From the NCBI GenBank assembly GCA_002189035.1, contig NEEC01000010.1, positions 496,001 through 560,000 of the forward strand: DNA of 64,000 nucleotides, given 5' to 3'. The stretch is from Utricularia gibba (taxonomy: Eukaryota; Streptophyta; Magnoliopsida; Lamiales; Lentibulariaceae). Each line of letters starts with the position of its first letter. Positions within the stretch are counted from its first letter, which is position 1. This document shows positions 24,855 through 27,319 of this stretch, in pieces. The notes below the pieces were generated by a model. That model had not been told where the DNA came from. It worked only from the letters and a program-made list of their open reading frames with translations, and searched no databases. Both the position numbers and the translations under genes were made by a program.

Positions 24855-27319
24855 ATGGCGGCTACTTCTGGGGAAATAGTAGAGGTGAAAGATGAGTGGA
24901 GTTGGGATAATGGGTCCAAAAAGCTTCAACCAAGTAGGGAACACAGACCTCCCATTGCGAAAAATTCACTGTATAAGCCGTTAGAAAACGAGATACACGA
25001 GCTTCTCCAGGCCGTAGCACCACGAGCGTGTAAGAGTTTGGATCTCTCTGACGCGGAGAGAAATCCTTTCAAGAAATCTGTGAAACTTGCTGGTTCTATG
25101 TCTCCATCTGTTGGCTTTTCGGAACCAGTTTCTCTGAAGCAAGCATTAAGGGGATTGTGCATTTCGCAAGCCGCTGAAATAGCTGCTATTAAAAGATTGT
25201 CAATGACTGTGTCTCCTCGGGCTTCGGATGGTGTGAAAGTCATGAATCCCCGTACTTTCGTTGTGGTTGAAGGTGGGAAATCATGTAGTAGTCAATCTAT
25301 GGAGGGGAAAATTAAAGCGGGGAATTCCCGTTTGAGTGACGGTTTTAGAGAGAAAGGAACAACAATATCTATGGAATTAGGGAATCTGGTTGCTCAAGAG
25401 AGCGCAGCATTCTGTGATGGAAAAGCGGCATTGAGAAGATACCATGAGCCTAAAGTTAAAACTACAGATGGAAAAGCTCCTTCTCCGAAGCGTCCAACGC
25501 GTGGTTTGAGTCATAGTTCGGCTTCTTCCTCTAATGCAGCTGACAAGGCCGTAACAAAGGTTAGGAGAAAGCCAAAGCTGCAGGCTGCTTCCACCGCTAG
25601 TGTTTCTAAAAGCAGCAGAGGCATGAAAGCTAGTAGAAATGCCGCTCGTGCTGTCAAACCAGCTGGTAGAACCCGGAATGTTGTCGTAAGAAAATCGAAG
25701 AAGTCTGTAACTCCAACAGGAGCAGAGTTCAATTCTGAGCATCTGATTTGCCAAAAGTGCCAGTGTTCTTTGAGGATTGAAGATGAGGATTCACCTAAAA
25801 CTCAGATGTCAGCCACAGTTGCTGGAACTTGTAAGGTTGGAGAGACTAAGGGGCAAGCTAATCCTCCATTGGCGTTGATGCATGGGGAACCTCAATTAGT
25901 GAAGAAAAATTTTGTATCTAAGGCTCTGGAGAAAGGGGACATCTCCCACAGCTCAATGAGCAGCATTTGTGAGTTTAGCAGTAGCGGTACTAGCCTCAGT
26001 GAGGAAAGTAGTCGAAGCGGTTCGACATGTGGGTACAGACCACATATGTCGACGGACTTGAGGTGGAGGGCAATTGACTGCATAACAAAAAAGCATGGCT
26101 ACCTGAACCTGAGCCACTTTAGTTTGCTGAAGAAGCTTGGCTCTGGTGATATAGGTACTGTTTATCTCGCAAAACTAACCGGCACGGATTCGTTATTTGC
26201 TATAAAAGTTATGGATAACGAGTTCTTGGCTAAAAGGCAGAAGATTCCCAGAGCTCAAACAGAAGGAGAAATTCTCCGAATGCTTGACCATCCATTTCTT
26301 CCCACTCTTTATGCACAATTTACCTCAGATAATATGTCATGCTTGGTCATGGAATTTTGCCATGGAGGTGACCTGCATGTTCTTCGACAGAAGCAGCCAG
26401 GCGGACATTTTGCTGAAAATGAAGCTAGGTATGTGTATGCGTAATTCACTATCCTCTTCGAAGGATTGAGGCTTATGCATTATGATCATTGGGGTCGTCT
26501 TTCTAATGCATTGTTTTGGGAAACATTCAGATTCTATGTTGCTGAGATCCTCCTTGCTCTCGAGTACCTCCACATGCTTGGAATTGTATACAGAGACCTT
26601 AAACCAGAAAACATTCTGGTTCGTGAAGATGGCCACATTATGCTTACGGATTTTGATCTCTCACTCCGATGCTCTGTGAATCCAAGTCTCGTAAAATCAG
26701 CTTCGGAGCCAGCTCGAGTCTCTGTGCAATGCGCAGGGTCCAGCTGCATTGATCCCTTCTGCACTGGACCCTCCTGCAGAGTCTCATGCTTCACTCCCGT
26801 ATTTTTTCTACCGATGGCAGGACTAGGAAGATAAAAGCCAACATGGGTGAGGTGGGATCACTGCCGCAGCTGGTGGTTGAGCCAAAAGAAGCACGATCGA
26901 ACTCCTTCGTAGGCACGCATGAATACTTAGCTCCAGAGATAATTAAAGGTGAAGGGCATGGTAGTGCTGTAGACTGGTGGACATTTGGTGTTCTTCTTTA
27001 TGAGCTTTTATATGGGAAGACGCCCTTCAAAGGCTCCGGAAATGAGGAGACATTGTCGAATATCGTGCTGCAGAGTCTCGAGTTCCCTGATGTACCTTTG
27101 GTTAGTTTACAGGCAAGGGATCTGATCAGAAGGCTCCTTGTGAAGGAACCCGAAAGCCGATTGGGAACGGAAACGGGAGCGGCTGAGATCAAGAGACACC
27201 CCTTCTTCGAGGGACTGAACTGGGCTTTGATTCGATGTGCTGTTCCACCGCCAGTTCATGAACCGTATGCCAATGGCAGCGTACAAGTAAAATCAGGACA
27301 CAAGTTTTTGTTCTACTGA
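24855..27319 (+). CDS. KIPK: AGC VIII Ser/Thr kinase, KIPK-like (frameshifted)
   Basis: Two exons, 24855-26428 and 26531-27319, joined at '[11 protein letters not shown]'. The N-terminal ~420 residues carry KIPK family marks: '[10 protein letters not shown]', '[19 protein letters not shown]', a basic serine-rich stretch and 'CQKCQCSL'. The kinase domain shows the loop '[11 protein letters not shown]', 'FAIKVMD' (catalytic Lys), '[10 protein letters not shown]', the plant AGC 'TDFDLSLRC' (DFD for DFG), the activation segment '[15 protein letters not shown]', and '[15 protein letters not shown]'. KIPKs bind the kinesin-like calmodulin-binding protein and phosphorylate auxin-transport and growth targets at the cell cortex. 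About 788 codons. At 26796-26799, in the insertion before the activation segment, the frame changes by one base at a run of Cs. Both sides are well conserved, so it is either a recent lesion (losing the kinase C-lobe) or an assembly error. The C-terminus ends 'KFLFY', a variant of the usual FxxF docking motif. The first upstream in-frame codon, GTG at 24843, was not used. Confidence 0.88.

Follow-up and report, generated by a model that had tools for sequence, protein, structure and literature searches.

Plant AGC VIII kinases contain an insertion of 36-118 aa between the DFDLS and SxSFVGTxEY motifs (PMC3499706). The Arabidopsis KIPK subfamily has an extended N-terminus of 537-558 aa, and KIPK and its relatives, which are polar kinases of the plasma membrane, can activate PIN auxin transporters and are redundant in hypocotyl gravitropism (PMC12013712). 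The PacBio assembly of Utricularia gibba was generated with HGAP and has a contig N50 of 3.4 Mb, according to a review (PMC5793159). Homopolymer indels are the dominant error of such long reads, and gene-fragmenting indels are on record for PacBio-only assemblies (PMC12007338). Here, we analyzed a 64,000-nt stretch of U. gibba DNA (G000:C304:496001-560000, hereafter the window) containing a kinase gene with a frame break, and made genome-wide comparisons within one assembly of 100.09 Mb in 516 contigs.

Structure and relatives of the window kinase

Compared by published description, the window gene shares with KIPK, KIPKL1 and KIPKL2 of the Arabidopsis AGC1 group the long N-tail, DFDLS, the insertion domain and the T-loop, but differs from them in having a one-base frame break as assembled (PMC12013712). 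DFD replaces DFG in the magnesium-binding loop, with DFDLS starting at 26649, and the insertion domain of ~78 aa (233 nt) lies within the AGC VIII definition, with the T-loop motif present. Judged from these motifs, the window gene carries the features that define plant AGC VIII kinases. Its N-tail ahead of the kinase profile match is ~420 aa, which is long, yet shorter than that of Arabidopsis KIPK, and the KIPK-type placement is tentative. By analogy with its family, the kinase may take part in polar signalling at the plasma membrane, with activation of PIN auxin transporters.

The two exons (Table 1) are separated by an intron with the borders GCTAG/GTATGT and ACATTCAG/ATTCTATG. Exon 1 is collinear with the paralogues L002 and L003, and the intron is found at the identical position in L002-L005. 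The window kinase is one of a duplicate pair whose other copy is located on G000:C451; the closest paralogue, L002 (G000:C451:4275825), is 85% identical to it. The terminal residues of the second exon 2 frame, FLFY, resemble the C-terminal FxxF (PIF) motif, which hints at an intact gene end. L002 lacks a terminal FxxF-like motif in its frame (~position 2290).

Further along the kinase strand, a calcineurin-like metallophosphatase gene (PF00149, 27423-27995) starts ~100 bases past the kinase stop, apparently with further exons up to ~28813. Stretches resembling LTR retrotransposon polyproteins (reverse transcriptase, integrase) lie on the minus strand at 35506-39812 and 8512-9665, and the former looks nearly full length.

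Table 1 Features of the kinase gene, in window positions.
Feature	Positions	Strand	Remarks
Exon 1: long N-tail and N-lobe, KIPK-type AGC VIII kinase (putative)	24855..26428	+	Open frame 24837-26444, start codon at 24855
Intron, GT..AG, 102 nt	26429..26530	+	Splits the R codon of RFYVAE
Exon 2 before the break: catalytic loop (YRDLKPEN), DFDLS, start of insertion domain	26531..26795	+	Frame A
C run, one base shorter than in paralogue	26796..26798	+	CCC, against CCCC in L002
Exon 2 after the break: remaining insertion domain, T-loop, C-lobe, C-tail with terminal FLFY	26799..27319	+	Frame B
Premature TAA if frame A runs on beyond the break	26832..26834	+

Frame break in the insertion domain

The sequence-only reading had described a frame switch within the kinase domain, from ~26796 to ~26799, at a short C run, which as assembled removes the activation segment and the C-lobe and which no splice signal accounts for. 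Our results bear out this description. The open reading frames of exon 2, frame A (26445-26834) and frame B (26753-27319), overlap by 82 nt, and the PF00069 match continues unbroken over three pieces, with exon 1 covering profile positions 2-100, frame A 102-150 and frame B 153-263. Frameshift-aware alignment to the paralogue protein placed a single shift in the window kinase segment, the loss of one base ending at 26800; 219 of 256 residues were identical, and the segment held no internal stops. At the DNA level, the window reads CCC where L002 reads CCCC, and all four aligned paralogues are open across the site. The break sits between DFDLS and SNSFVG, in the most variable portion of the catalytic region, and the 233 nt between these motifs are not a multiple of three. 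The assembled product stops at the premature TAA after ~625 aa, against ~787 aa expected; it retains DFDLS, while the T-loop, the C-lobe and the greater part of the insertion domain are gone.

The sequence beyond the break was compared with the paralogues. Between the window gene and L002, the post-break part has a dN of 0.064 and a dS of 0.678 (dN/dS 0.094), compared with a dN/dS of 0.131 between L002 and L003. Amino-acid changes in this part number three on the window branch and six on the L002 branch, and silent changes 14 and 16, respectively. No excess of change on the window branch was found in exon 1, the pre-break part or the post-break part. These data indicate that the post-break part is under strong purifying selection. 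It has not drifted as a long-dead gene should, and therefore the break either arose very recently or is absent from the plant.

Similar breaks elsewhere in the genome

Among the 24 AGC VIII kinases (genes of the assembly found with the kinase exon), four have frame breaks, the window gene included. Of the other three, L007/L024 is broken at a G run in the region of the catalytic loop, L008/L028 at a run of six C, and L029 (G000:C1:4256417-4257138) within the insertion domain, where the sequence is rich in C/G. For L029, a reading with two extra bases is possible as well. In a sample of 30 loci retrieved from the GRAS family, whose members mostly lack introns, six have localised breaks, two of them being broken twice; L059, a seventh locus with an upstream frame change, is outside this count. 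Half of the six are DELLA-like, namely L065 (G000:C375), L066 (C142) and L067 (C2), whose breaks lie at or near the conserved GGPP/GGAP-TFRLTGIGPP junction (locus positions ~1490-1515), where the codons of DELLA-like genes form C runs; L067 is broken a second time.

Of the 12 breaks localised across the kinase and GRAS families, 11 read as the loss of one base; a second shift near the C-terminal end of L024 was left out of this set as a possible end effect. A G/C run of at least three bases lies within 9 nt of 11 of the 12 breaks compared with 38% of random coding positions (p ~2e-4, approximate since n=12 is small and the breaks were positioned by alignment), and a run of at least four lies near six of the 12 against a background of 11%. 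A/T runs showed no enrichment near the 12 breaks. In true pseudogenes, one would also expect nonsense codons, longer indels and drift. In the alignments, no in-frame nonsense codon was found in the break-containing stretches of the kinase and GRAS loci.

HSP70 matches touch or overlap in different frames at G000:C451:3343449-3345088, at C496:432830-434478, and at C304:2235823-2237462 together with C241:16598-18237. By their coordinates, these are probably frame breaks too, and the candidate at C304:2235823-2237462 is common to the diverged contigs C304 and C241.

Duplicated contigs were also compared directly. Over 4.1 kb, C316 (L050) and C412 (L051) differ by one substitution and 11 gap events; all 11 gaps are bases absent from C316, and one of them replaces GGGG by GGG in coding sequence. 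This pattern is an error signature and not divergence. C316 appears to be a redundant, under-polished contig. The pair C241/C304 differs by 16 substitutions and two single-base gaps, both bases missing in C304, which looks like real divergence and speaks neither for nor against an assembly error; as substitutions predominate, this pair was dropped as an error test.

Origin of the break and its implications

Since single-base losses at C/G runs occur genome-wide and selection on the gene is not relaxed, the frame break in the window is very probably a residual error of a long-read assembly, in which one base was dropped from a short C run, with the gene intact in the plant. The strongest evidence for such an error comes from the rest of the genome. 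The plant gene would then encode a KIPK-type AGC VIII kinase of ~787 residues, in which a long N-tail precedes a bilobal kinase, a plant-specific insertion domain separates DFDLS from the T-loop, and a C-tail closes the protein. We infer that the missing base is present in the plant DNA. As judged here from the assembly, the break resembles the homopolymer deletion errors described in long-read assemblies in that one base is lost at a C/G run of a conserved gene, with recurrence in unrelated genes (PMC12007338). Counterpoints to an assembly error are the shortness of the C run (three in the window, four in the paralogue) and the pair C241/C304, which shows that duplicated contigs may differ without an error-like pattern. 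Moreover, C316 is a small contig and perhaps less well polished than C304, the 3.5 Mb contig of the window.

Of the three origins that the sequence-only reading had offered, an assembly indel is thus strongly favoured, while a true lesion and an allele of one haplotype gained no positive support. A true loss-of-function deletion of very recent date in one copy of the kinase duplicate pair, with the T-loop and C-lobe lost, would agree with the break being present in the assembled sequence and with a conserved duplicate, L002, that could take over the function; it is nevertheless unlikely, as selection is not relaxed after the break, the gene has no second lesion, and C/G-run deletions are common in unrelated conserved genes. 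If it were true, the last-exon stop and the long 3' tail behind it could make the transcript prone to decay, and a rootless, reduced carnivorous plant would carry a KIPK-type duplicate without a catalytic C-lobe. A heterozygous null allele of which the broken copy alone was assembled would fit the single assembled copy of the locus, but no alternative contig exists for it and the pattern across genes can be accounted for without such an allele, which makes this origin very improbable. No second near-identical copy of the kinase locus was found in the assembly of 516 contigs. The 82-nt overlap of frames A and B would also allow ribosomal frameshifting as true recoding, or a cryptic intron, to re-establish the frame. 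This is extremely improbable, however, because the paralogues are single-frame throughout without any special element, the breaks of other genes are located at different places, and the candidate splice sites are weak: among 24 frame-restoring GT..AG pairs spanning at least 60 nt across the break, the best donor agrees with only 5 of 9 consensus positions, and a cryptic intron was accordingly rejected.

Most likely, therefore, the feature is a deletion introduced in the assembly, in a gene that is intact and belongs to a known kind, and not real biology. Among the loci inspected, single-base losses at C/G runs break about one AGC VIII kinase in six and about one GRAS locus in five, which calls for caution; because these losses are recurrent, claims of gene loss or pseudogenes made from this assembly, those on DELLA regulators included, need read-level checks.
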